From assembly GCA_002050465.1 (NCBI GenBank), contig MWYX01000023.1, positions 1-39,313 of the forward strand: a DNA stretch of 39,313 bases, written 5' to 3'. The DNA is from Chitinophagales bacterium 65-1 (lineage in GTDB: Bacteria; Bacteroidota; Bacteroidia; Chitinophagales; Chitinophagaceae). This document shows positions 4,488 through 34,465 of this stretch, one piece after another. The notes under the pieces were generated by a model. The model searched no databases and was not told where the DNA came from. It saw only the letters and a list, made by a program, of their open reading frames with translations. The translations under genes and the position numbers were made by a program. The stretch's first letter is position 1; each line of letters opens with the position of its first letter.

Positions 4488-5537
4488 ATGAATTTTGAAT
4501 TAGAGAAATTGGTAAGATGTAACATAAGCAAGTTAATCCCTTACTCATCCGCCCGCCATGAGTTTATCGGCGAAGCATCTGTATATCTTGACGCAAATGA
4601 AAACAGCTTTGGCTCTCCTCTGAAAGAAAATTTTAACCGGTATCCTGATCCGCTACAATGGCAATTAAAATTGGAATTATCAAAAATTAAAGAAGTTTCT
4701 CTGGAAAATATTTTTATTGGTAATGGCAGTGATGAGGTGATTGATCTGGCTTACAGAATATTTTGTAACCCAGGGAAGGATAATGTAATTATATGCCCGC
4801 CAACTTACGGTATGTATGAAGTAAGCGCAAATATTAATGATGTTGAAATAAAAAAAGTCATCCTTAAAGAAAATTTTCAGTTAGATGTGGATGGTATATT
4901 AAATGCAACAGATGAAAATACAAAGATCATTTTTATATGTTCTCCCAATAACCCAACAGCTAACAATATGAGCAGGAATGATATTGAGAAGCTACTTACT
5001 AATTTTGCTGGTATGGTGATCATAGATGAAGCATATATAAATTTTTCAACACAAAAAACATATATACAGGAACTCACGAGCTATGAAAATTTAATTGTAA
5101 TGCAATCACTTTCAAAAGCATGGGGATTAGCTTCATTGCGGCTGGGACTTGCTTTTGCTTCGTTGCAGGTAATTGAATTGTTCAATAAAGTAAAGCCTCC
5201 TTACAATATCAATAAGGCATCACAACAGTTTGCTATAGAAGCATTACAAAACACTTTGCAGGTAAAGGAGTGGGTAAAACAGATACTTGAACAAAGAGAA
5301 TTTCTTAAAAGACAATTATTGAACTTTTCTTTTGTAAAGAAGGTTTATGAAAGCGAAGCAAATTTTTTATTGGTAAAAGTTGAAGATGCTGGCGATTTGT
5401 ATAATTATTTAGAGGCGAATAAAATCATTGTAAGAAATAGGAGCAGAGAAGTTTTATGTGATAATTGCTTACGAATCACTGTAGGTACTCCAGAGGAAAA
5501 TCTTGAATTGATAAAAATATTAAATACATATGATTAG
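4488..5537 (+). CDS. hisC: Histidinol-phosphate aminotransferase
   Basis: A PLP-dependent fold-type I aminotransferase that converts imidazole-acetol phosphate to histidinol phosphate using glutamate. The 349 residues include NGSDEVIDL (cofactor phosphate region), SPNNPT, the PLP-stacking DEAYINF segment, and the Schiff-base lysine in [15 protein letters not shown] (about residue 210). [10 protein letters not shown] near the C-terminus carries the substrate-carboxylate Arg. The gene overlaps hisB by 8 bases, suggesting translational coupling. Confidence 0.96.
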
Positions 5538-9474: not shown

Positions 9475-10770
9475 TTATTTAGTCAGCAAATAATCTTTCA
9501 AGGCATCATACTTTGCTTCTATTTTTATGCTGTGCTTTTTCATTTTAATCAAATCGTTTATTTCACCAGGCATAGGCACCGTTTGCTGAATGATTGGTTC
9601 CACCACATCATAAAATTTTACGGGATGTGCTGTTTCAAGAAATATTCCCTTGTGCAAGGGATTGTCCTGTAAATATTTTTTTAATGCGAGGTAAGCGACT
9701 GCCCCATGTGGGTCTAGTAAATACTTTTTATTTAAAAAAACCTCTTTCAAAACAATCTTTGTTTCTTCATCGGAAATACTATAACTGCTCATTATATTTC
9801 TAAGAGAATTAAACTTTTGATCAAATAGCTCTAATATTCTTACAAAGTTGCTGGGGCTACCTACATCCATAGCATTTGATAGGGTTGTGATGGAGGGCTT
9901 GGGCAAATAATTTTCTGTTTTTAAATATTCAGGCACTACATTATTTGCATTGCACGCCGCTATAAAATGTTGCGCAGGCAAACCTGAAAGATGCGCCAAT
10001 ATTCCTGCGCAGATATTTCCAAAATTGCCACTGGGGACGCTAATTACAGGAAGATTTTTTTCTTTCCATTGTTGGTATGCAAAAAAATAATAAAATTGTT
10101 GCGGCAGCCAGCGTGCTATATTTATTGAGTTTGCAGAGGAGAGTAATATTTTTTTATTTAAGCCCTCATCTGCAAATGCCTGTTTTACCATTAGCTGGCA
10201 CTCATCAAATGTTCCATCAATTTCTAAAGCTGTTATATTTTTCCCAGGCGTAGTTAATTGTAATTCCTGTACAGTGCTCACTTTTCCTGATGGGTAAAGA
10301 ATAATTACATCAACTCCATCTACATCATAAAAACCGTTTGCAACAGCTCCACCTGTATCACCTGAAGTAGCTACCAACACGGTTATATTTTTATCATTAT
10401 TCTTTACAAAATAGCTAAGGCAGCGGCTCATAAACCTTGCCCCAACATCTTTAAAAGCTAGAGTAGGTCCATGAAATAATTCAAGAGAGAAAATATTATC
10501 TTCTACGTTGACTAATGGAAATTCAAAATTGATCGTTTCCGATACAATTCTTTCCAATTCATTTTTGTGAATTACATCCCCTATGTATGGCTGAATAACC
10601 ATAAATGCAATTTCTTCTTTTGAATATTTGTCAATATTTCTAATAAAATCTTCAGAAAGCTGGGGGATGCTTTCAGGAAAGTACAATCCTTTATCAGGCG
10701 CCTGCCCTTTGACGGTTGCTTCTTTAAAATTTACTTTAGGGGAAATATGGTTGGTGCTGTAATAAAGCAT
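9475..10770 (-). CDS. thrC: Threonine synthase
   Basis: A PLP enzyme that converts O-phosphohomoserine to threonine, the last step. Landmarks are the cofactor lysine in LAFKDVGARF, the phosphate-binding SGDTGGAV and the SGNFGNICAG loop. I place the start at ATG 10770 because MLYYSTNHISPKVNFKEA matches the family N-terminus. An in-frame ATG seven codons upstream (10791) is possible. The last of the minus-strand thrA-thrB-thrC group, it is separated from thrB by an intergenic palindrome (10794-10857). It faces hisIE tail to tail. Confidence 0.95.
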   Translation of the reverse strand: MLYYSTNHISPKVNFKEATVKGQAPDKGLYFPESIPQLSEDFIRNIDKYSKEEIAFMVIQPYIGDVIHKNELERIVSETINFEFPLVNVEDNIFSLELFHGPTLAFKDVGARFMSRCLSYFVKNNDKNITVLVATSGDTGGAVANGFYDVDGVDVIILYPSGKVSTVQELQLTTPGKNITALEIDGTFDECQLMVKQAFADEGLNKKILLSSANSINIARWLPQQFYYFFAYQQWKEKNLPVISVPSGNFGNICAGILAHLSGLPAQHFIAACNANNVVPEYLKTENYLPKPSITTLSNAMDVGSPSNFVRILELFDQKFNSLRNIMSSYSISDEETKIVLKEVFLNKKYLLDPHGAVAYLALKKYLQDNPLHKGIFLETAHPVKFYDVVEPIIQQTVPMPGEINDLIKMKKHSIKIEAKYDALKDYLLTK

Positions 10771-10793
10771 GAATGTAATTTTTGATGACATGT

Positions 10794-10857
10794 TCGTGAG
10801 ACGTAAGATGTGAAACGTAAGAGATCAGTTTCACGTTTCACGTTTGACGTTTCTCGA
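10794..10857 (-). repeat. Family C inverted repeat, copy 1 (thrB/thrC junction)
   Basis: TCGTGAGACGT at one end and ACGTTTCTCGA at the other bracket a degenerate GTGAAACGT-type inverted repeat. The element runs into thrB and provides its final codons and TGA stop. Related copies lie at 17197-17286, 21580-21643 and 28809-28867. Confidence 0.75.
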
Positions 10858-11785
10858 TTAATAACTCCTCACAAATACTTATTCCCTCATTATTTATTGT
10901 TGTAACATAAGTATGATGTGCTAAACCAATGCTATCATAAATACCTCTCATTATTAATTCTACGTCTCTAGCAATATTTTCTTCTTTGCATAACATGAAT
11001 ATAGAAGGGCCGGAGCCGGCAATGCCGCCACCTAATGCCCCTGCCTGTGCACAGTTTTTCTTTACCTCATCAAATCCAGGAATTAAAATGCTTCTTACAG
11101 GTTCTATTATTACATCTTCCAGGCTGCGACTTATTAATCCATAATCGCTCTGCATAAAACCTGTAACCAGGCCTGCAATATTTCCCCATTGCTTAATAGC
11201 ATCTTTTAATAAAACTTCTTTGCGAAGGATTTCTCTTGCATCAGATGTTTTTACTTCGATTTGCGGATGCACAATAGCAACATACATTGGTGGTGCAGGC
11301 AAAGCAATTATATCTAAGGGGAAAATAGAACGGATCAGTGTTACACCTCCATAAATACAGGGAGAGATGTTATCAGCATGTTTTACTCCTGAAGCAAGTT
11401 TTTCTCCGGCCATTGCAAAACGAACAAGGTCTTCTTTAGAAAATCTATTTCCGAGTAAGTGATTGGCAGCAACAACAACTCCTGCAGCGCTTGCAGCGCT
11501 GGAACCCAGGCCACTGCCAGGCTTTATACGTTTCTCTATTATTATGTCAAATCCAATTTGGTTATCAAGCTCTTTCATTAATTCTAACAAGGCAACACCG
11601 GCAACATTTTTTTCAGGAATTAGAGGGAGGTTGTAAATATCATTGTGTTGAATACGAATGCCGGGATTTTCACAAAGAGTGATCTGCATTACGTCCTGCG
11701 GATCATTTAATGCCATACCTAAAACATCAAAGCCACAAACTAAATTGGCAATGGTTGCAGGTGATTTTATTTTTACGGAGCTCAT
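10838..11785 (-). CDS. thrB: Homoserine kinase
   Basis: A GHMP-family kinase that phosphorylates homoserine for ThrC. The ATP-binding motif is PGSGLGSSAASAAG (about residues 88-101), and the C-terminal GGGIAGSGPSIFML loop is present. At 315 residues it is of normal size. The last residues (EKRQT) and the stop are encoded by the family C repeat. Four bases separate its start from the thrA stop, so the two are in one transcript. Confidence 0.95.
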   Translation of the reverse strand: MSSVKIKSPATIANLVCGFDVLGMALNDPQDVMQITLCENPGIRIQHNDIYNLPLIPEKNVAGVALLELMKELDNQIGFDIIIEKRIKPGSGLGSSAASAAGVVVAANHLLGNRFSKEDLVRFAMAGEKLASGVKHADNISPCIYGGVTLIRSIFPLDIIALPAPPMYVAIVHPQIEVKTSDAREILRKEVLLKDAIKQWGNIAGLVTGFMQSDYGLISRSLEDVIIEPVRSILIPGFDEVKKNCAQAGALGGGIAGSGPSIFMLCKEENIARDVELIMRGIYDSIGLAHHTYVTTINNEGISICEELLIEKRQT

Positions 11786-11789
11786 TGAT

Positions 11790-14261
11790 TTAATTAGTGG
11801 GAGCAGCAGCTCTTATTATATCTGCAAATACACCCGAAGCTGTTACTTCTGCACCCGCACCTGCGCCTTTAATTACGAGCGGTTGTTCAGCATACCGGTC
11901 AGTATAAAAAAGAACGGCATTATCCTTTCCATACAAGTGATAAAAGTCATGTTGCGGATCAATATGCTGCAGGCCTACAGCAGCTTTCCCAGTATCCCCT
12001 GAAAAGGAGCTGTGGTAGGATGCTACAAACTTTAACTTTTTTCGGGCCTGCTTTGCTTCTTCAGCTAAGTTTTTAAAATGGTTCTCATGCTTTTCCATTT
12101 CTTTATAAAAATTTTCAACATCACCTTCCATACAGGAAGATGGCAGAAATGAATTATTACTGATGTCTTCCATTTCCATTTTTTCTCCGGTTTCCCTGGC
12201 CAGTATCATTATTTTACGCATTACATCTGTTCCGCTTAAATCCAGTCTTGGGTCAGGCTCTGTATATCCTTCTGCCTGTGCCTGTCGCACAACCGATGCA
12301 AAACTTTTTTCACCCGTATAGTTATTAAAAACAAAGTTAAGTGTACCGCTTAAAACTGCTTCAATCCTGTTTACCCTATCGCCACTTCTCAGTAAGTCAT
12401 TTAATGTACCTATTACCGGTAAACCTGCGCCCACATTGGTCTCAAAAACAAACACCGCATTAAATTCTCTGGCCAGGTCTTTTAATTTTTTATAATATTC
12501 ATAAGAAGATGAGCAGGCAACTTTATTGCACGCAACTACTGAAATACTTTTTTCTAAAAAATGCGGGTAAGATTTTGCCACATCATTATTAGCCGTAACA
12601 TCAATAAAAACCGAGTTCCTTAAATTCTTTTTTTGAATAGAAGAAATAAAGTTTTGCATATTCATGCTATCACCGCTTTGCAAAAGTTCTTTCCATTTTG
12701 ATGCATCGATCCCATTATCATCAAAGAACATTTTTTTACTATTAGCAATTCCTGCAACCCGAACCTGCAATCGTAAATGGTGATGCAGATATTGTATTTG
12801 CTGTTGTAACTGCGCTAATAGCTTGCTTCCCACATTTCCTGTACCGGCTATGAAGAGATTGATTTGCTTGTACGTTGTTTCAAAAAATTCTTCATGTAAA
12901 ACGTTGATTGCTTTTTTAACATCCTGGGTAGCAATTACAGCCGAAATATTTTTTTCAGAAGATCCTTGGGCTATAGCTCTTATGTTTACACCATTTCTTC
13001 CTAACACACCAAACATTTTACCACTTATCCCGGGATGATTTTTCATATTGTCACCCACAAGAGCAACGATAGCCAGGTTTTTTTCTACAACAAGAGGTTC
13101 AACTTTTTTCAGTTCAATCTCATAAGCAAATGCTTTATCCACTGCTGCTTTTGCTTTATCAGCATTCGGGTCTTCAATGCCCACACAAATTGAATGCTCT
13201 GAAGAACTTTGAGTAATAAGAATAACATTTATTTTTTCATCTGATAAAGCTTCGAATAATCGTTTTGAAAATCCCGGGATACCAATCATTCCGCTGCCTT
13301 CAAGACTCATTAACGCAAGTTTATTTATGCTGGAAATGCCACGAATACTTCCTCCATTTTTAGATGAAACATTTTGGATTAATGTTCCTTGTTCGTATTG
13401 AGCAAATGTATTTTTGATCCATACCGGAATTCGTTTGCTCATTACAGGCTGTAGGGTAGGCGGATAAATTACTTTAGCGCCAAAATGAGAAAGTTCCATA
13501 GCCTCCTGGTAAGATATTTGCTGAATGATTTTTGCATTGGTAACCAGCCTGGGATCAGCAGTCATCATTCCCGAAACATCAGTCCAGATTTCTAATACTG
13601 AAACACTTAAAGCTGCTGCAATAATTGCTGCAGTATAATCTGAACCACCTCTTCCCAATGTTGTTGTATTGCCAATTTTATCTGCTGCAATAAAACCAGG
13701 AAGAATACAAATGGGAGTTTCCAGTGAGAAAAAGAAAGACTGAATATTTTTATTTGTCGATATAAAATCAACATTGGCTGAGCAGAATTGAGAATCAGTT
13801 ATGATAAGTTCTCTTGCATCTTTCCATGTATTTTCTATGTCAAGTGATCTTAACTTTTCTGAAAATATTTGGGAAGATAATAACTCACCATTACTGATAA
13901 TAGAATCTTTAGTGCGCAGTGATAATTCTTTTAATAAAAAAACACCGTTGGAGGTATCTTCAATCTCATTGAATCTTTTTTTCACCATGCTTAATACGCC
14001 GCTTTGCCTCTCTATGGGCATTAACTCTTTTACAGTTGAAAGATGCCTGTGTTCAAGTTGATGAAGTTTTTCTTTATAGGAAGAATCCGCATTGGAGGCC
14101 AGTTTTGCTACCTCTAATAAAGCATCGGTAGTGCCACCTAATGCAGAGACAATTATAATTATATTGTTATTTTTTTTAACAGCATGCTGTACAATTGTGA
14201 TCACTTTATTTATATTATCAGCATTGGCAACAGAACTACCTCCAAATTTTAATACCTGCAT
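11790..14261 (-). CDS. thrA: Bifunctional aspartokinase / homoserine dehydrogenase
   Basis: Catalyses the first and third steps of the aspartate pathway. The N-terminal kinase starts MQVLKFGGSSVAN and includes TLGRGGSDYTA (about residue 205). Central ACT-type regulatory domains include the GDNMKNHPGISGKMF segment. The C-terminal dehydrogenase begins near FIAGTGNVGSKLL (about residue 470) and ends with GAGAGAEVTASGVFADIIR. The 823-residue length is normal for ThrA. The feedback ligand, usually threonine, is assumed from the family. It follows a Thr/Ile-rich leader peptide (14338-14424). Confidence 0.96.
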   Translation of the reverse strand: MQVLKFGGSSVANADNINKVITIVQHAVKKNNNIIIIVSALGGTTDALLEVAKLASNADSSYKEKLHQLEHRHLSTVKELMPIERQSGVLSMVKKRFNEIEDTSNGVFLLKELSLRTKDSIISNGELLSSQIFSEKLRSLDIENTWKDARELIITDSQFCSANVDFISTNKNIQSFFFSLETPICILPGFIAADKIGNTTTLGRGGSDYTAAIIAAALSVSVLEIWTDVSGMMTADPRLVTNAKIIQQISYQEAMELSHFGAKVIYPPTLQPVMSKRIPVWIKNTFAQYEQGTLIQNVSSKNGGSIRGISSINKLALMSLEGSGMIGIPGFSKRLFEALSDEKINVILITQSSSEHSICVGIEDPNADKAKAAVDKAFAYEIELKKVEPLVVEKNLAIVALVGDNMKNHPGISGKMFGVLGRNGVNIRAIAQGSSEKNISAVIATQDVKKAINVLHEEFFETTYKQINLFIAGTGNVGSKLLAQLQQQIQYLHHHLRLQVRVAGIANSKKMFFDDNGIDASKWKELLQSGDSMNMQNFISSIQKKNLRNSVFIDVTANNDVAKSYPHFLEKSISVVACNKVACSSSYEYYKKLKDLAREFNAVFVFETNVGAGLPVIGTLNDLLRSGDRVNRIEAVLSGTLNFVFNNYTGEKSFASVVRQAQAEGYTEPDPRLDLSGTDVMRKIMILARETGEKMEMEDISNNSFLPSSCMEGDVENFYKEMEKHENHFKNLAEEAKQARKKLKFVASYHSSFSGDTGKAAVGLQHIDPQHDFYHLYGKDNAVLFYTDRYAEQPLVIKGAGAGAEVTASGVFADIIRAAAPTN

Positions 14262-26537: not shown

Positions 26538-27875
26538 ATGTTTGATTTTTTGAAAAAGCCGGTCTCCAAAGTAGCAGATAAAGCCCAAACCTTAAGCATA
26601 GAAGAGATGCTGAAATATGTTGTAGAAAAGTTTAAGGAGGAAGTTATCTTTTCTACAAGCTTTAGCTATGAAGACCAGATAATAACTCATAAAATATTAA
26701 GTGCCTCTCTTCCTATCCGGATTTTTACATTAGATACAGGAAGGCTTTTTCCCGAAACTTATTCTGTCTGGAATGCTACAAATGAAAGATACAACACTCA
26801 TATTAAAGCATTCTACCCCGATCATTCATTGATTGAAAAATTTGTTGCAGAAAAAGGGCCTGATTCTTTTTATGAATCAGTTGAGAACAGAAAAGGTTGT
26901 TGTTATATAAGAAAAGTAGAACCATTAAAAAGAGCTTTAAAAGGCAATGCTTTATGGATAACAGGTCTTCGTGCAGAACATTCATCTGACAGGCATGATA
27001 TACCACAGGTTGAATGGGATGAAACTAATAACGTTATAAAATACCATCCACTTCTTAACTGGACTTTTGATGAAGTAAAAGACTATATCAGCAAAAATAA
27101 AATACCTTATAATCCATTACATGATAAAGGTTTTGTAAGCATTGGATGTGCTCCCTGTACAAGGGCCATAAAGCCGGGTGAAGATTTCAGGGCAAAAGCC
27201 CAAACCTTAAGCATAGAAGAGATGCTGAAATATGTTGTAGAAAAGTTTAAGGAGGAAGTTATCTTTTCTACAAGCTTTAGCTATGAAGACCAGATAATAA
27301 CTCATAAAATATTAAGTGCCTCTCTTCCTATCCGGATTTTTACATTAGATACAGGAAGGCTTTTTCCCGAAACTTATTCTGTCTGGAATGCTACAAATGA
27401 AAGATACAACACTCATATTAAAGCATTCTACCCCGATCATTCATTGATTGAAAGATTTGTTGCAGAAAAAGGGCCTGATTCTTTTTATGAATCAGTTGAG
27501 AACAGAAAAGGTTGTTGTTATATAAGAAAAGTAGAACCATTAAAAAGAGCTTTAAAAGGCAATGCTTTATGGATAACAGGTCTTCGTGCAGAACATTCAT
27601 CTGATAGGCATGATATACCACAGGTTGAATGGGATGAAACTAATAACGTTATAAAATACCATCCACTTCTTAACTGGACTTTTGATGAAGTAAAAGACTA
27701 TATCAGCAAAAATAAAATACCTTATAATCCATTACATGATAAAGGTTTTGTAAGCATTGGATGTGCTCCCTGTACAAGGGCCATAAAGCCGGGTGAAGAT
27801 TTCAGGGCAGGCCGGTGGTGGTGGGAAGATAGTGATAAAAAAGAATGCGGGTTACATGTTCATGTTGTTGATTAA
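26538..27875 (+). CDS. cysH: Adenylylsulfate reductase with internally duplicated core
   Basis: Reduces APS (activated sulfate) to sulfite with thioredoxin-type electrons. Each core has the family STSFSYEDQ substrate segment, the cluster cysteines KGCCYIRK and GCAPCTR, and GLRAEHSSDR. Two Cys pairs are the [4Fe-4S] signature of APS rather than PAPS reductases, consistent with no APS kinase in the cluster. The core (205 residues) occurs twice in tandem. Only the second is followed by the C-terminal RWWWEDSDKKECGLH with the catalytic Cys, so the first copy lacks it. The normal family length is about 235-250 residues and this protein is about 445. I start it at ATG 26538 (MFDFLKKPV). An in-frame TTG at 26436 would add a hydrophobic segment from a T-rich leader and is unlikely. 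Confidence 0.93.
   Translation: MFDFLKKPVSKVADKAQTLSIEEMLKYVVEKFKEEVIFSTSFSYEDQIITHKILSASLPIRIFTLDTGRLFPETYSVWNATNERYNTHIKAFYPDHSLIEKFVAEKGPDSFYESVENRKGCCYIRKVEPLKRALKGNALWITGLRAEHSSDRHDIPQVEWDETNNVIKYHPLLNWTFDEVKDYISKNKIPYNPLHDKGFVSIGCAPCTRAIKPGEDFRAKAQTLSIEEMLKYVVEKFKEEVIFSTSFSYEDQIITHKILSASLPIRIFTLDTGRLFPETYSVWNATNERYNTHIKAFYPDHSLIERFVAEKGPDSFYESVENRKGCCYIRKVEPLKRALKGNALWITGLRAEHSSDRHDIPQVEWDETNNVIKYHPLLNWTFDEVKDYISKNKIPYNPLHDKGFVSIGCAPCTRAIKPGEDFRAGRWWWEDSDKKECGLHVHVVD
26580..27194 (+). repeat. Tandem duplication unit 1 in cysH
   Basis: A 615-base unit (205 codons) beginning AAAGCCCAAACC and ending GATTTCAGGGCA. By eye it differs from unit 2 only at 26839 (A; Lys codon) and 26990 (C; silent). 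Confidence 0.95.
27195..27809 (+). repeat. Tandem duplication unit 2 in cysH
   Basis: The second 615-base unit, directly abutting unit 1 in the same frame. It carries G at 27454 (Arg codon) and T at 27605, and it joins the single catalytic C-terminal tail. Confidence 0.95.
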
Positions 27876-27899: not shown

Positions 27900-28808
27900 A
27901 TGAGTAAATATCATTTAGATTATTTAGGACAGCTGGAATCAGAAGCTATTCATATTATGCGTGAAGTGGCAGGCCAATTCGAGCGGCCGGCATTACTGTT
28001 CTCTGGGGGAAAGGATTCGATCACATTGGTACACCTTGCACTAAAAGCATTTAGGCCAGGAAAATTTCCATTCCCTTTAGTGCATATTGATACCGGTCAT
28101 AACTTTCCTGAAGCACTAAACTTTAGAGATGATCTCGTAAAAAAAATTGGCGAAAAGCTTATCGTTCGCAAAGTGGAAGATACGATTAAAGAAAAAAATC
28201 TTACTGAACAGCAAGGAAAATTCGCCAGCCGAAATGCCCTGCAAACCTATACCCTGCTTGATATTATAGAAGAATTCAAATTTGATGCACTTATAGGCGG
28301 TGCAAGAAGAGATGAAGAAAAAGCAAGAGCCAAAGAAAGAATATTTTCTGTAAGAGATGAGTTTGGACAATGGAATCCAAAGCTTCAGCGACCGGAATTA
28401 TGGAATACATACAATGGTAAAATACACAAAGGAGAAAATGTTCGTGCATTTCCTATCAGCAACTGGACAGAACTTGATGTTTGGAATTATATACGCAGCG
28501 AAAAAATTGAACTGCCATCCATTTATTTCTCACATGAAAGAGAGGTACTGGAACACGAAGGTCAATTGGTGGCGGTATCTGAATATATTAAACTGGCAGA
28601 AAGCGATATAATATTAAAAAGAAAAGTACGATACAGAACAGTAGGGGATATGACATGTACAGCAGCCGTAGAATCAAATGCCACGGGTATTGATGAGATC
28701 ATTAATGAAATTATTGCAACCAAAACAAGTGAAAGAGGCGAAACAAGAATTGATGATAAGGTTTCAGAAGCAGCGATGGAAGACAGGAAAAAGAGTGGAT
28801 ACTTTTAA
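27900..28808 (+). CDS. cysD: Sulfate adenylyltransferase subunit 2
   Basis: The PP-loop subunit of ATP sulfurylase, which makes APS from sulfate and ATP with CysN. The 302-residue protein has the pyrophosphatase-loop SGGKDSITLVHLA (about residues 36-48), the following HIDTGHNFPEAL, the GGARRDEEKARAKERIFS segment, and the basic C-terminus KVSEAAMEDRKKSGYF typical of CysD. It starts 24 bases after cysH. A family C inverted repeat begins on the base after its stop. Confidence 0.96.
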   Translation: MSKYHLDYLGQLESEAIHIMREVAGQFERPALLFSGGKDSITLVHLALKAFRPGKFPFPLVHIDTGHNFPEALNFRDDLVKKIGEKLIVRKVEDTIKEKNLTEQQGKFASRNALQTYTLLDIIEEFKFDALIGGARRDEEKARAKERIFSVRDEFGQWNPKLQRPELWNTYNGKIHKGENVRAFPISNWTELDVWNYIRSEKIELPSIYFSHEREVLEHEGQLVAVSEYIKLAESDIILKRKVRYRTVGDMTCTAAVESNATGIDEIINEIIATKTSERGETRIDDKVSEAAMEDRKKSGYF

Positions 28809-28867
28809 TCGTGAAATGTGAAAGGTGAAACGTGAGATTTTCACGTCTGCCGTTTCACGTCTCACGA
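28809..28867 (+). repeat. Family C inverted repeat, copy 4 (cysD/cysN gap)
   Basis: Arms TCGTGAAATGTGAAAGG and CGTTTCACGTCTCACGA enclose TGAAACGTGA/TCACG inner arms around a short T-rich centre. It starts exactly after the cysD TAA and ends 27 bases before the cysN ATG. Confidence 0.85.
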
Positions 28868-28894
28868 CAAATTATAAAGGGGTTAAAAAAAATT

Positions 28895-30136
28895 ATGGAC
28901 ATTCTAAGATTTATTACTGCAGGAAGCGTTGACGATGGAAAGAGTACTTTGATTGGCCGTTTATTGTATGACAGTAAATCTATTTTGATTGATCAGCTGC
29001 TGGCTATTGAAAAACAAAGTAAGAATAAAGAAGAAGGTGAGATTGATCTTGCATTGCTTACCGATGGTTTGCGTGCAGAAAGAGAACAGGGAATTACCAT
29101 TGATGTTGCTTATAAATATTTTTCTACACCTAAACGTAAATTTATTATTGCGGATGCACCAGGGCATATTCAGTACACACGTAATATGGTTACAGGTGCA
29201 TCTAATTCAGAGATGGCAATTATTCTGGTAGATGCAAGAAACGGAGTTGTAGAGCAAACACGTCGCCATTCTATTATTACTTCTTTGCTTAATATTCCGC
29301 ATGTGGTGGTTGCTATTAACAAGATGGATTTGGTAGATTATTCTGAAGATGTTTACAACAATATTGTAATTGATTTTGAAGAAGTAGCTAAATCTCTGGC
29401 ACTAAAAGATGTAAAATATATTCCTATAAGTGCATTAAACGGGGATAATATTGTGGAAAGATCTGAAAATTTTTCGTGGTATGAAGGTGAATCTTTATTA
29501 CATCATTTGGAAAATATTGAGCTCGAATCTGACATAAATCTTACAGATGCAAGATTCAGCGTACAATATGTTATTCGTCCGCAAGTAACTGAATTACACG
29601 ATTACAGGGGCTATGCCGGTAAGATAATCAGTGGAATTTATCGCAAAGGGGATAAAATAATTGTTCAGCCATCCGGATTAGAAAGTTCAATCAAAGCAAT
29701 TGAGATCGGTGGCAAAGAGATCAATGAAGCGTTTGCTCCACAAAGTGTAGTACTACATCTCGAAGATGATATAGATGTGAGTCGTGGAGACATGATCGTT
29801 CATCGTGATCATCCACCGGCAATTGAACAGGAATTTGATGTGCTGTTGTGCTGGATGGGTAATAAACCTTTAGTTGCGGGTAATAAATATTTTTTGCAGA
29901 TCAACAGTAAAGTGGTGAGAAGTGTAGTTAAAGAGATCGATTATAAATTAAACGTAAACACTTTGCAGAAAGAGTATGCTCCTAAAAAAGCCGAACTGAA
30001 TGATATTATTAAAGCAACAATAAAAACAGCATCTCCTGTTGCATTTGATTCTTATAAAAAATTGAGAGAGAATGGGGGAGCGATTTTAATTGATGAAACA
30101 AGTTGTGTTACGGTGGGGGCATGTATGATTCAATAG
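28895..30136 (+). CDS. cysN: Sulfate adenylyltransferase subunit 1 (GTPase)
   Basis: The regulatory GTPase of ATP sulfurylase, related to EF-Tu. From ATG 28895 the product starts MDILRFITAGSVDDGKSTLIGRLL with the P-loop. It has the switch II DAPGHIQYTRNM, NKMDLV (guanine specificity) and, further on, two beta-barrel domains. There is no fused APS-kinase (CysC) domain, as expected with an APS reductase. An upstream in-frame ATG (28832) would translate the family C repeat and is rejected in favour of the family N-terminus. Confidence 0.96.
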   Translation: MDILRFITAGSVDDGKSTLIGRLLYDSKSILIDQLLAIEKQSKNKEEGEIDLALLTDGLRAEREQGITIDVAYKYFSTPKRKFIIADAPGHIQYTRNMVTGASNSEMAIILVDARNGVVEQTRRHSIITSLLNIPHVVVAINKMDLVDYSEDVYNNIVIDFEEVAKSLALKDVKYIPISALNGDNIVERSENFSWYEGESLLHHLENIELESDINLTDARFSVQYVIRPQVTELHDYRGYAGKIISGIYRKGDKIIVQPSGLESSIKAIEIGGKEINEAFAPQSVVLHLEDDIDVSRGDMIVHRDHPPAIEQEFDVLLCWMGNKPLVAGNKYFLQINSKVVRSVVKEIDYKLNVNTLQKEYAPKKAELNDIIKATIKTASPVAFDSYKKLRENGGAILIDETSCVTVGACMIQ

Positions 30137-30173: not shown

Positions 30174-31016
30174 ATGTTTGAAAAAGGAAAAGTAATACTG
30201 GCAGGCGCGGGTCCCGGTGATCCTGAATTGATCACTATGAAAGCTATACAATGGCTGCAACAGGCTGATATAGTTCTTACTGATCGTTTGGTGAGTGAAG
30301 AAATATTGGATATGTATGTGAGCAAAAATGCAGAGGTTATTCATGTTGGTAAACAATGTAAGCGAGGAGTTTCTACGCCACAGCAAACCATTAATCAGTT
30401 GTTAGTTGAGCATGCATTGAAGGGAAAATTAGTTGTGCGTTTAAAAGGGGGTGATGTTTCTATATTCTCCAATATAATGGATGAGCTGGAAACGCTTGTT
30501 GCCCATAATATTCCTTATGAGATTGTTCCTGGTGTAACTGCTGCTTTCGGAGCAGCTGCATATGCAGGTATTCCGCTAACTGCAAGAGGTTATGCTACTG
30601 CTGTTCGGTTTCTTACTTATTATAAATCAGATGTTTTAACAGAAGAATATTGGCAAGAATTAGCCAACACAAATGATACATTGGTTTTTTATATGTCCTC
30701 TGAAACATTGGAGAATGTTGTTAATAAGCTAAAAGAGAAAAATATAGCTGCAGATAAACTGCTTGCAGTAATTGAACAGGCTACAACACCTTTTCAAAAA
30801 GTGCACATTAGTAATTTATATAAATATGAAGAAACATTAAAAGGCCACACTTTTATTTCTCCTTCATTAGTGATCATCGGAAAAGTAGTATCACTGCAAA
30901 AACAATTTGCATGGCTTGCCAACAGCAACAGTAGTGAATATTATTTTAAGCCTATCACTAGCCCTGTAATTCCTATTGCTGACAATCAAAAAGAAAAACA
31001 TGTTAGCAGAGCATAA
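30174..31016 (+). CDS. cobA: Uroporphyrinogen-III C-methyltransferase
   Basis: Methylates uroporphyrinogen III twice with SAM to give precorrin-2, the first step to siroheme, the cofactor of the sulfite reductase two genes on. The 280 residues show VILAGAGPGDPELIT (SAM-site loop), VVRLKGGDVSIF, and the EIVPGVTAAFGAAAYAGIPLTARG block characteristic of SUMT. It lacks the CysG dehydrogenase/chelatase half, which is instead fused to a transporter at 34506-36020. Its 3' end overlaps cysJ by 17 bases. Confidence 0.94.
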   Translation: MFEKGKVILAGAGPGDPELITMKAIQWLQQADIVLTDRLVSEEILDMYVSKNAEVIHVGKQCKRGVSTPQQTINQLLVEHALKGKLVVRLKGGDVSIFSNIMDELETLVAHNIPYEIVPGVTAAFGAAAYAGIPLTARGYATAVRFLTYYKSDVLTEEYWQELANTNDTLVFYMSSETLENVVNKLKEKNIAADKLLAVIEQATTPFQKVHISNLYKYEETLKGHTFISPSLVIIGKVVSLQKQFAWLANSNSSEYYFKPITSPVIPIADNQKEKHVSRA

Positions 31017-32682
31017 ATTAAAAACATTACTCAATCTCATTAGCAATTCAACAAGCGAAGAGCTTATATGGATGAATGGATACTTGAATGGTATTGTATT
31101 AACACAAAATGTAAAAGAAGAAATTCAGAAAAATAGTGGCGTGAATAAAATCACGATTGCATACGGAACAGAAACAGGTAATTCAAAAAAACTGGCTACC
31201 GAGTTTGCTGCAAAAGCAAAGAAGCAGGGCATTCATGCTAAGGTGCAGAGCATGGAGCAATACCGGCTGAATGATCTTTCCAAAGAAGAATATTTTTTAG
31301 CTGTTATCAGTACTCACGGAGATGGAGAACCGCCTGCTGCTGCAAAAAGATTCTATGAACATGTTCATCAAAATGGATTTAAGCTGGATAAATTAAAATA
31401 TAGTGTGCTTGCTTTAGGCGATACTTCGTATCCTTTGTTTTGCAAAGCTGGTGAAGATGTAGATGAGCAACTGAATAAGCTCGGGGGAAAACGTATTGCG
31501 CCTTTACAAAAATGTGATATCGATTTTGATGCAGAAGCAGAAGAATGGTTCTCAAATATATTCAGATCATTAAATGAAGATAGCACAACAGCTCCTCCAC
31601 CAGCTATTATAAAAAAATCAAAAGGCAAAAAAAATTATGCAGGCACATTGCTGTCGCATATCAATCTTAATGATACAGGTTCTGCAAAAGAAACTTATCA
31701 TATTGAAATTGCTGCAGAAGATGTTAGCTATCAGCCTGGTGATTCTATTGGCATTATCCCGGAAAATGATAAAGCAATTGTTGAGGAGATCATTACATTA
31801 ACAGGTATTGATGCAACAACGAATATTAATTATAAAGAGGAATTAGTTTCTGTATATGAGCTGCTTTATAAAAAATTGAATATCGTTTACCTGCCCGAAC
31901 GTTTTGTAAAACATTATGCCTCTATAGTAAAAAAAGATATTCCTATACAAAGAATTGACCTGCTACTATTGCTGAAAAATTATCCTGTAAAAAATGCTGG
32001 AGAATTCTTAGAGGTTATTAAAATTTTAGAACCTATCACTCCAAGATTATATTCTATTGCCTCTTCACCGGAAGCTCATGCAGGCGAAGTGCATATAACT
32101 GTTGCAAAAAACTCTTTTGCAATAAATAAGGAAACTAAATACGGACTTGCATCTGAGTTTTTATCTCAATTTAATGCAGATGATAAACTGAAATTTTACG
32201 TACATCCAAATAACCAGTTCCGTTTGCCTGAAGAGGATAAAAATATAATCATGATTGGACCTGGAACAGGCATAGCGCCATTCCGTTCTTTTATTGCAGA
32301 AAGAGATGCAACAGGCGCAACAGGAAAGAACTGGCTATTTTTTGGGGAACAACATTTTACCACTGATTTTTTTTACCAAACCGAAATACAGAACTGGTTT
32401 GAGACAGGTTCTCTTACAAAAGTAAATACAGCCTTTTCAAGAGATCAACAGGAGAAAATTTATGTACAGCATAAAATGTCACAGCATGGAGCTGAATTTT
32501 TTGAATGGTTGAATGCGGGAAGCTATGTGTATGTGTGTGGCGCAAAAGAGCCAATGAGTGTTGACGTTGAACATGCATTATTGCAAATAATAGAACAGTT
32601 TGGTGAGCGGTCCAGGGAAGATGCAGTTAAATATCTTGATGATATGAAAGAAGATGGCAGATATGTTAAGGATGTGTATTAA
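31000..32682 (+). CDS. cysJ: Sulfite reductase flavoprotein (diflavin reductase)
   Basis: Carries electrons from NADPH through FAD and FMN to the CysI hemoprotein. From ATG 31000 (MLAEHKLK) the product has a flavodoxin domain with TIAYGTETGNSKKLA (about residues 46-60) and STHGDGEPP. Then come a ferredoxin-reductase FAD domain with RLYSIASSP, and an NADPH domain with GPGTGIAPFRSF, WLFFGEQH and YVCGAKEPM. It ends in the diflavin C-terminal DDMKEDGRYVKDVY. An in-frame TTG at 30976 is a less likely start. It overlaps the preceding gene, consistent with coupling. Confidence 0.94.
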   Translation: MLAEHKLKTLLNLISNSTSEELIWMNGYLNGIVLTQNVKEEIQKNSGVNKITIAYGTETGNSKKLATEFAAKAKKQGIHAKVQSMEQYRLNDLSKEEYFLAVISTHGDGEPPAAAKRFYEHVHQNGFKLDKLKYSVLALGDTSYPLFCKAGEDVDEQLNKLGGKRIAPLQKCDIDFDAEAEEWFSNIFRSLNEDSTTAPPPAIIKKSKGKKNYAGTLLSHINLNDTGSAKETYHIEIAAEDVSYQPGDSIGIIPENDKAIVEEIITLTGIDATTNINYKEELVSVYELLYKKLNIVYLPERFVKHYASIVKKDIPIQRIDLLLLLKNYPVKNAGEFLEVIKILEPITPRLYSIASSPEAHAGEVHITVAKNSFAINKETKYGLASEFLSQFNADDKLKFYVHPNNQFRLPEEDKNIIMIGPGTGIAPFRSFIAERDATGATGKNWLFFGEQHFTTDFFYQTEIQNWFETGSLTKVNTAFSRDQQEKIYVQHKMSQHGAEFFEWLNAGSYVYVCGAKEPMSVDVEHALLQIIEQFGERSREDAVKYLDDMKEDGRYVKDVY

Positions 32683-32746: not shown

Positions 32747-34465
32747 ATGCCAGTAGAAAAGCAAAATAAAGATTCAATGACCGATCGCCCTCTCTATCGG
32801 AGAGGAAGGGAGGATGAGGCCTCACCGATAGAAAAGATAAAAACAGAAAGTAATGGTCTTCGTGGAACTATTACTGAAAGTTTGCAGGATGAAATCACAG
32901 GAGCTATTCGTGAAGATGATCAATCATTGATAAAATTTCATGGCATGTACCAGCAGGATGACCGTGATCGCCGTGAAGAAAGAGCTGAAAAAAAACTGGA
33001 CCGCTTATACAGTTTTATGATCCGGCTTCGTTTGCCGGGAGGCTTATTAACTGCTGACCAATGGATAGCTATGGATGAAATTGCCGGTGAAAATTCTACC
33101 GGCGTAATCAAAATAACTACACGGCAAACAGTTCAGCTGCATGGAATTTTAAAATCAAAAATAAAACCAACCATTAAAGCTTTTAATGCGGCAAAACTTG
33201 ATTCAATTGCTACTTGTGGCGATATTAACCGTAATGTACTATGCAGCGCCCATCCAAAGCAATCAAATATTCATTCAGAAATATTTGCTTATGCAGATAA
33301 GATAAGCACGATGCTAATGCCAAAGACAAGAGCATGGTACGAGATATGGCTTGATGAAAAAAAAGTATTAGATAAAAAAGAAGAAGAAGATCCTTTGTAC
33401 CGGGAGAGTTATATGCCGCGAAAATTTAAAATTGCAATTACAATTCCTCCCAATAATGATGTTGATGTTTTTGGAAATGATATTGGATTGATTGCCATCA
33501 TTGAGAATGATACATTAAAAGGTTTCAACATTGCAATAGGCGGCGGCTTATCAACTACACACGGCAATCCTGAAACCTATGCAAGGCTGGCAACAGTGAT
33601 AGGTTTTACAGATACTGAAGAAAAAACGCTTAAAGCAATTTACGAGATACTTACTGTACAAAGAGATTATGGAAACCGGACTGATAGAAAATTAGCAAGA
33701 TTAAAATATACCGTTGACAGGTTAGGTGTAGATGGGTTTAAACAAGAAGTTGAAAAGCGTGCTGGCTTTAAACTTGAAGAAGCAAAACCTTATAACTTTA
33801 ACAGTCGTTGTGATTATTATGGATGGTACCAAAACCATGAAGGCTTGTGGTATTATACAGTTTTCGTTGAGAACGGCAGGCTGTTGGACGATGAGAATAT
33901 TGCATTAAAATCAGCCTTGCTTGCTGTGGCAAAAACAGGCAAAGCAATTTTTAGATTTACAGCCAATCAAAATGTCATCATCAGTGATATAAATGAAAAA
34001 GATAAAGAATTAATTGATCAAATATTAAAGAAATATAAAATTATTGAGCATACTCATCAAGCATCTCCTGTTCGTAAAAATGCTATGGCCTGTGTAGCAT
34101 TGCCAACATGCCCGCTGGCCCTGGCAGAAGCACAGCGGTACATGCCTTCACTTCTTACTAAAATAGAAACTTTGCTTGCGAAATATCAGTTAGGTAATGA
34201 AGACATTATTATACGTATGACCGGCTGCCCCAATGGTTGTGCCAGATCATACATTGCAGAGATAGGTTTTGTAGGAACATCGCCTGGCAAATACAATTTG
34301 CATTTAGGAGGAGATCATGAAGGGAGCCGCTTAAATAAAATTTATAAAGAAAGTCTGGAAGAACCTGAAATTTTAAACAGCCTTGATGAATTGTTTGCTG
34401 ACTTTAAAAAAGAAAGAAACGGCGCTGAAAAATTTGGTGACTATTCTTTCAGAAAATATTTTTAA
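32747..34465 (+). CDS. cysI: Sulfite reductase hemoprotein
   Basis: Six-electron reduction of sulfite to sulfide at siroheme and a [4Fe-4S] cluster. The 572-residue protein has the family start SPIEKIKTESNGLRGT only from residue 26, then KFHGMYQQDDRDRR and TTRQTVQLHG. The cluster/siroheme cysteines are ACVALPTCPLA and MTGCPNGCARSY. About residues 12-25 (TDRPLYRRGREDEA) come from a palindromic repeat. An internal ATG at 32777 would still include it. It receives electrons from CysJ, and its siroheme needs the two flanking gene products. Confidence 0.95.
   Translation: MPVEKQNKDSMTDRPLYRRGREDEASPIEKIKTESNGLRGTITESLQDEITGAIREDDQSLIKFHGMYQQDDRDRREERAEKKLDRLYSFMIRLRLPGGLLTADQWIAMDEIAGENSTGVIKITTRQTVQLHGILKSKIKPTIKAFNAAKLDSIATCGDINRNVLCSAHPKQSNIHSEIFAYADKISTMLMPKTRAWYEIWLDEKKVLDKKEEEDPLYRESYMPRKFKIAITIPPNNDVDVFGNDIGLIAIIENDTLKGFNIAIGGGLSTTHGNPETYARLATVIGFTDTEEKTLKAIYEILTVQRDYGNRTDRKLARLKYTVDRLGVDGFKQEVEKRAGFKLEEAKPYNFNSRCDYYGWYQNHEGLWYYTVFVENGRLLDDENIALKSALLAVAKTGKAIFRFTANQNVIISDINEKDKELIDQILKKYKIIEHTHQASPVRKNAMACVALPTCPLALAEAQRYMPSLLTKIETLLAKYQLGNEDIIIRMTGCPNGCARSYIAEIGFVGTSPGKYNLHLGGDHEGSRLNKIYKESLEEPEILNSLDELFADFKKERNGAEKFGDYSFRKYF
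32781..32820 (+). repeat. Palindromic repeat (family B) inside cysI
   Basis: CCTCTC (32789-32794) and GAGAGG (32800-32805) around TATCG, followed by AAGGGAGGATGAGG, resembling the element in gltD (CCCTCTCC...GGAGAGGG with a CTCACC/GGTGAG flank). It lies in frame in the CysI N-terminus. Confidence 0.65.

Follow-up and report, generated by a model that had tools for sequence, protein, structure and literature searches.

The doubled cysH gene in the draft genome of Chitinophagales bacterium 65-1, a probable false tandem duplication

The cysH locus as assembled

The window analyzed here, a stretch of 39,313 bases, is the entire contig C7 of the draft genome (G000) of Chitinophagales bacterium 65-1, which comprises 1,957,690 bases in 68 contigs, is 79.5% complete, and has draft genomes of Chitinophagales and Chitinophagaceae as its closest named relatives. 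On its forward strand lies a cysH open reading frame with a doubled core (26538-27875), which starts with ATG at 26538, ends with a stop codon at 27873-27875, and encodes a product of 445 amino acids. A single-copy N-terminal leader of 14 codons (26538-26579), similar to that of relatives, is followed by unit 1 (26580-27194), a core of 205 codons with CC and CxxC cluster motifs; unit 1 runs directly into unit 2 (27195-27809), which is the same core, and the frame closes with a single-copy C-terminal tail (27810-27872) that reads GRWWWEDSDKKECGLHVHVVD and carries the catalytic Cys. The two units, 615 bp each, stand head to tail with no gap at the junction (27194/27195), and the frame is uninterrupted through both. 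They differ at two positions and no more: A in unit 1 and G in unit 2 at 26839/27454, which changes AAA (Lys) to AGA (Arg), and C in unit 1 and T in unit 2 at 26990/27605, which is silent (GAC/GAT). A chance origin is dismissed because the match extends over 615 bp with 99.7% identity. The in-frame tandem duplication described in an earlier note on this DNA, with its coordinates, its two differences and its 445-residue frame, is thus present in the assembled sequence, which by itself does not show that the organism carries it.

The gene sits in an ordinary sulfate assimilation cluster, in which it is followed on the same strand by cysD and cysN (27900-28808 and 28832-30136), encoding subunits 2 and 1 of sulfate adenylyltransferase, a uroporphyrinogen-III C-methyltransferase gene (30174-31016), a cysJ-like sulfite reductase flavoprotein gene (30976-32682; best model TIGR01931, 564 bits, below the cut-off of 668), and cysI (32747-34465), encoding the sulfite reductase hemoprotein. 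Before cysH, in divergent orientation, is the gene for the large subunit of glutamate synthase.

Identity of the enzyme and distribution of its tail

The identification as APS reductase made in the earlier note agrees with the scores of core 2 plus tail against TIGR02055 (APS reductase; 249.3 bits, cut-off 235.3), PF01507 (PAPS_reduct domain; 158.8 bits, cut-off 22.5) and PRK02090 (266.1, cut-off 154), and by these scores above curated cut-offs the gene is predicted to encode an assimilatory APS reductase, CysH. It resembles the assimilatory [4Fe-4S] CysH family (TIGR02055, PF01507, 2GOY) in its core, its cluster motifs, its KECGLH tail and its gene neighbourhood, and differs in possessing, as assembled, a tailless extra core before the complete enzyme, its relatives being single-core. 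One set of CC...CxxC cluster motifs is present in each unit; among 28 close relatives, the first motif takes the form CCx[IL]RKV in 25 and the second the form IGCxPC in all 28.

The observation that the first unit lacks the C-terminal ECGLH tail was correct and can be extended. All 28 close relatives have R[AS]GRWWWE and then KECGLH after the core, and unit 1 lacks both, so that the GRWWWE stretch before the tail is missing as well; the KECGLH tail with the catalytic Cys belongs to unit 2 and not to unit 1. This count leaves aside the more distant loci L025-L032, and also L035 and L036, which represent genes already counted as L004 and L005. Among the eight distant loci, tails were compared for six: five terminate in ECGLH or ECGLN and carry a GRW or ARW stretch of another form, and that of L025 reads NRWEGQKKTECGLH. 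The tail that is missing from unit 1 aligns with positions 244-260 of the chain of 2GOY, the solved enzyme of P. aeruginosa, including Arg245 and Cys256, and the position aligned with Arg245 is within the GRWWWE stretch. We take these two residues of 2GOY to serve in substrate binding and catalysis. Unit 1 has no aligned relatives in an alignment of the double protein. No other cysH was found in this draft genome, at its 79.5% completeness. If the double enzyme is real, its work would most likely be done by core 2 with the tail.

Search for the double core in relatives

Matches to CysH were found in 34 of 59 genomes in one search (this genome included), in 12 of 20 genomes of the genus, and in 248 of 394 genomes of the family (this genome included). 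Match counts per genome are complete for all family genomes with a match, and seven of the 248 have two: this one, G001, G108, G165, G242, G244 and G322. None of the other six is a double form, since in none do the two matches lie head to tail; those of G242 are pieces of one broken gene. The open frame of 585 in G273 is due to an upstream extension of a single core. Thus the form of about 445 residues, for which the earlier note proposed a search of related genomes, is absent from all 247 other family genomes with a match, none of which has a head-to-tail double cysH in one frame. The same junction was found in no viral contig, and no report of a doubled CysH or a tandem-duplicated APS reductase was found in the open-access literature searched.

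At the first differing codon relatives have Lys, Asn, Pro, Glu and others, and at the second a mixture of GAC, GAT, AAC and others; because they vary at both codons, neither copy can be assigned as ancestral at the two sites. Two side observations concern the distribution of cysH in general. Eight of the 20 genus genomes have no CysH match, and several of these are 98-100% complete; therefore assimilatory sulfate reduction seems to be patchily distributed across the genus. G244 (79% complete, 5% contamination) has two separate full-length copies of cysH, on its contigs C826 and C295.

Junction homology and reading frame

There is no microhomology at the junction of the cysH repeat: the unit ends with A but is preceded, left of unit 1, by T, and it begins with A but is followed, right of unit 2, by G. 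Both fully readable junctions of this genome, that of cysH and that of a second repeat on contig C14 (below), have zero shared bases, a result expected by chance at about one-third of blunt junction pairs (9/16 squared). For Salmonella, a genome-wide study (PMC3411829) reports that of eight duplications tested five were verified, all with junction homology of at least 11 bp; candidates with 7 bp, 9 bp and, in one case, 17 bp of homology were not, and short homology is taken there as a sign of chimeric reads. By the yardstick of Table 1 of PMC3411829, the cysH repeat lacks the breakpoint homology that spontaneous duplications usually have.

The reading frame points slightly the other way. That both repeats should be intragenic and in frame has a joint chance of 0.018 for random pieces of such lengths, and of 0.034 for random real duplications that spare gene integrity; frame retention thus shifts the odds towards a real duplication by only about 1.9-fold.

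Further backward junctions in this assembly

A repeat scan of 957,690 bases of this genome in 49 stretches (49.9% of the genome) revealed a second head-to-tail repeat, on contig C14 (L066), with units of 708 bp (10567-11274 and 11275-11982) that have one difference and are in frame. It lies within a gene for 1597 amino acids that matches FTSW_RODA_SPOVE in three stretches and a Transpeptidase domain; with the repeat, most of the FtsW/RodA domain would occur twice in one protein. In 4 of 19 genus relatives the homologous stretch is uninterrupted, with open frames of 1157-1379 amino acids and one match each; in G009, a further genus relative, it is in two pieces.

Of the 136 contig ends 66 were examined, and two of these are formed by 127 bases that occur again, without a mismatch, in the same contig. 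The last 127 bases of contig C4 (L137:874-1000) repeat exactly a sequence that lies 500 bp earlier, at a junction that passes out of frame from one gene into the preceding one, which it enters midway, and the first 127 bases of contig C31 (L079:1-127) are an exact copy of 5028-5154, 5027 bp further on, with the first frame of the contig broken off there. At the start of contig C2 (L045:1-58) there is a 51-base exact copy of sequence 5361 bp further on. The equal lengths of 127 bases suggest a graph assembler with k = 127 and unresolved backward junctions in the same direction. Similar, unrelated junctions, of the kind that an artefact would lead one to expect, thus occur elsewhere in the assembly (the C14 repeat and the ends of C4 and C31), and the second head-to-tail repeat together with the two backward-jump contig ends indicates a fault of the data set.

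To the control sequences the closed relative G023 contributed 400,000 bases, G010 132,694, G001 178,287, and a set of 36 gene flanks 143,687; once two overlaps are removed, this makes about 847 kb, all from genomes assembled by other means than this one. They contain no head-to-tail repeat. Gapped direct repeats of at least 100 bp occur six times in the two draft relatives, once in G010 and five times in G001, several of them at contig starts, and the contig tips of these two genomes (18 starts and 9 ends) have no exact copy longer than 39 bases. The comparison of head-to-tail repeats, two against none where the amounts of sequence are similar, does not reach significance on its own and is based on the sample of 49.9% of the genome. 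The case for an artefact draws its weight from the pattern of four backward junctions and from the k-mer equivalence.

K-mer equivalence of the repeat and two single-copy variants with one junction

Each of the stretches identical between copies exceeds 127 bases: they measure 259, 150 and 204 bases in the cysH repeat and 525 and 182 bases in that of C14. For both repeats, at k = 55, 77, 99, 127 and 141, the duplicated sequence yields exactly the same k-mers as two single-copy haplotypes together with a single junction fragment, and neither set has a member that the other lacks. The k-mer sets being identical, short reads can distinguish the single from the double form solely by depth and pairing, and the two differences between the units are no argument against an assembly error. 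The contrary contention of the earlier note, that they speak against a simple one, is not supported, because two strain variants and a chimeric junction give identical k-mers. The equality is a proof of possibility and no proof of occurrence. The same note took the near-identity of the units to mean a very recent event; this is one reading of the 0.3% difference, and ordinary strain variation is the other.

Origin of the repeat

The assembly error that the earlier note had mentioned as a possibility is now held to be the most likely explanation, given the other backward junctions, the k-mer equality, the homology-free breakpoints and the lack of a double form in any relative: the cysH repeat is probably a false tandem duplication that arose from a chimeric junction, and a double-core enzyme probably does not exist. 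In the scenario that we infer, cysH in the organism would be a normal single-core gene, present once and about 240 codons long, and a library chimera (formed, for example, by self-ligation) would link the last base of a 615-bp piece to the first, so that the chimeric fragment or read would supply the assembler with an edge returning from 27194 to 26580. Two cysH variants differing at two sites would be present in the sampled population, giving two graph branches per site, and the assembler would pass through the loop twice, taking a different variant on each pass. The chimeric read might be dispensed with if two overlapping strain-variant contigs had been concatenated end to end and their overlap not removed, which would fit the blunt, homology-free junctions and the differences of 0.1-0.3%. 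This is the least probable of the explanations, however, as there are no runs of N in 957,690 bases of this genome and no exact overlaps of 20-600 bases between any two of 66 contig tips, and the two 127-base contig ends place the junctions in the graph itself.

A real duplication of some kind, mostly without new function, is clearly less probable than a false one. In the form that is rather unlikely but not far-fetched, a tandem duplication without new function would be fixed or present in part of the population, core 1 would be a passive N-terminal extension, core 2 with the tail would constitute a complete APS reductase, and the 615-bp copies would be unstable and lost by recombination. Duplications are frequent in growing bacteria according to PMC3411829, the frame is kept in both repeats of the genome, and core 2 with the tail exceeds the thresholds of TIGR02055 and PRK02090; moreover, as this is the only cysH found in the genome, the doubled form must work if it is real. 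Against such a duplication are the lack of homology at the junction, the other backward junctions in the assembly, and the absence of any counterpart in relatives. A real double-core APS reductase under selection, whose two cores would each bind cluster and substrate and be served in turn by one C-terminal tail, is very unlikely: the CC and CxxC motifs for the cluster are retained in both units, whose protein sequences differ by a single Lys/Arg change, but core 1 has neither the catalytic Cys nor the GRWWWE stretch present in 28 of 28 close relatives, and the arrangement is absent from relatives and undescribed in the open-access literature searched. It is equally improbable that two putative [4Fe-4S] cores share one tail in a lineage with several homology-free, in-frame duplications of core genes (cysH and the FtsW/RodA-transpeptidase gene).

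Comparison with known systems

An APS reductase core joined to another domain in one chain has precedents in the plant and algal APR enzymes fused to a thioredoxin-like domain and in the ATPS-APR fusion of Heterocapsa, as described in PMC2275785; the partner in those fusions is a different, useful domain, whereas in cysH here it is a second copy of the core. The repeat is direct and head to tail like the spontaneous tandem duplications of bacteria in PMC3411829, but those verified in that study have at least 11 bp of junction homology and the cysH repeat has none. It resembles the false duplications of assemblies treated in PMC9516828 in being a near-identical copy that differs by putative population variants and is missing from relatives, although the false duplications of that account concern vertebrate haplotypes and the case here is a short loop, head to tail, in the draft genome of a bacterium.

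If the doubling is real, two cores with one tail would provide a natural test of whether a tail can serve a second active site. If it is an artefact, as is probable, it is a warning that two differences between copies do not prove a duplication in a draft genome to be real, because strain variants and one chimeric junction give the same k-mers. False in-frame fusions of this kind would reach protein databases as new domain architectures.
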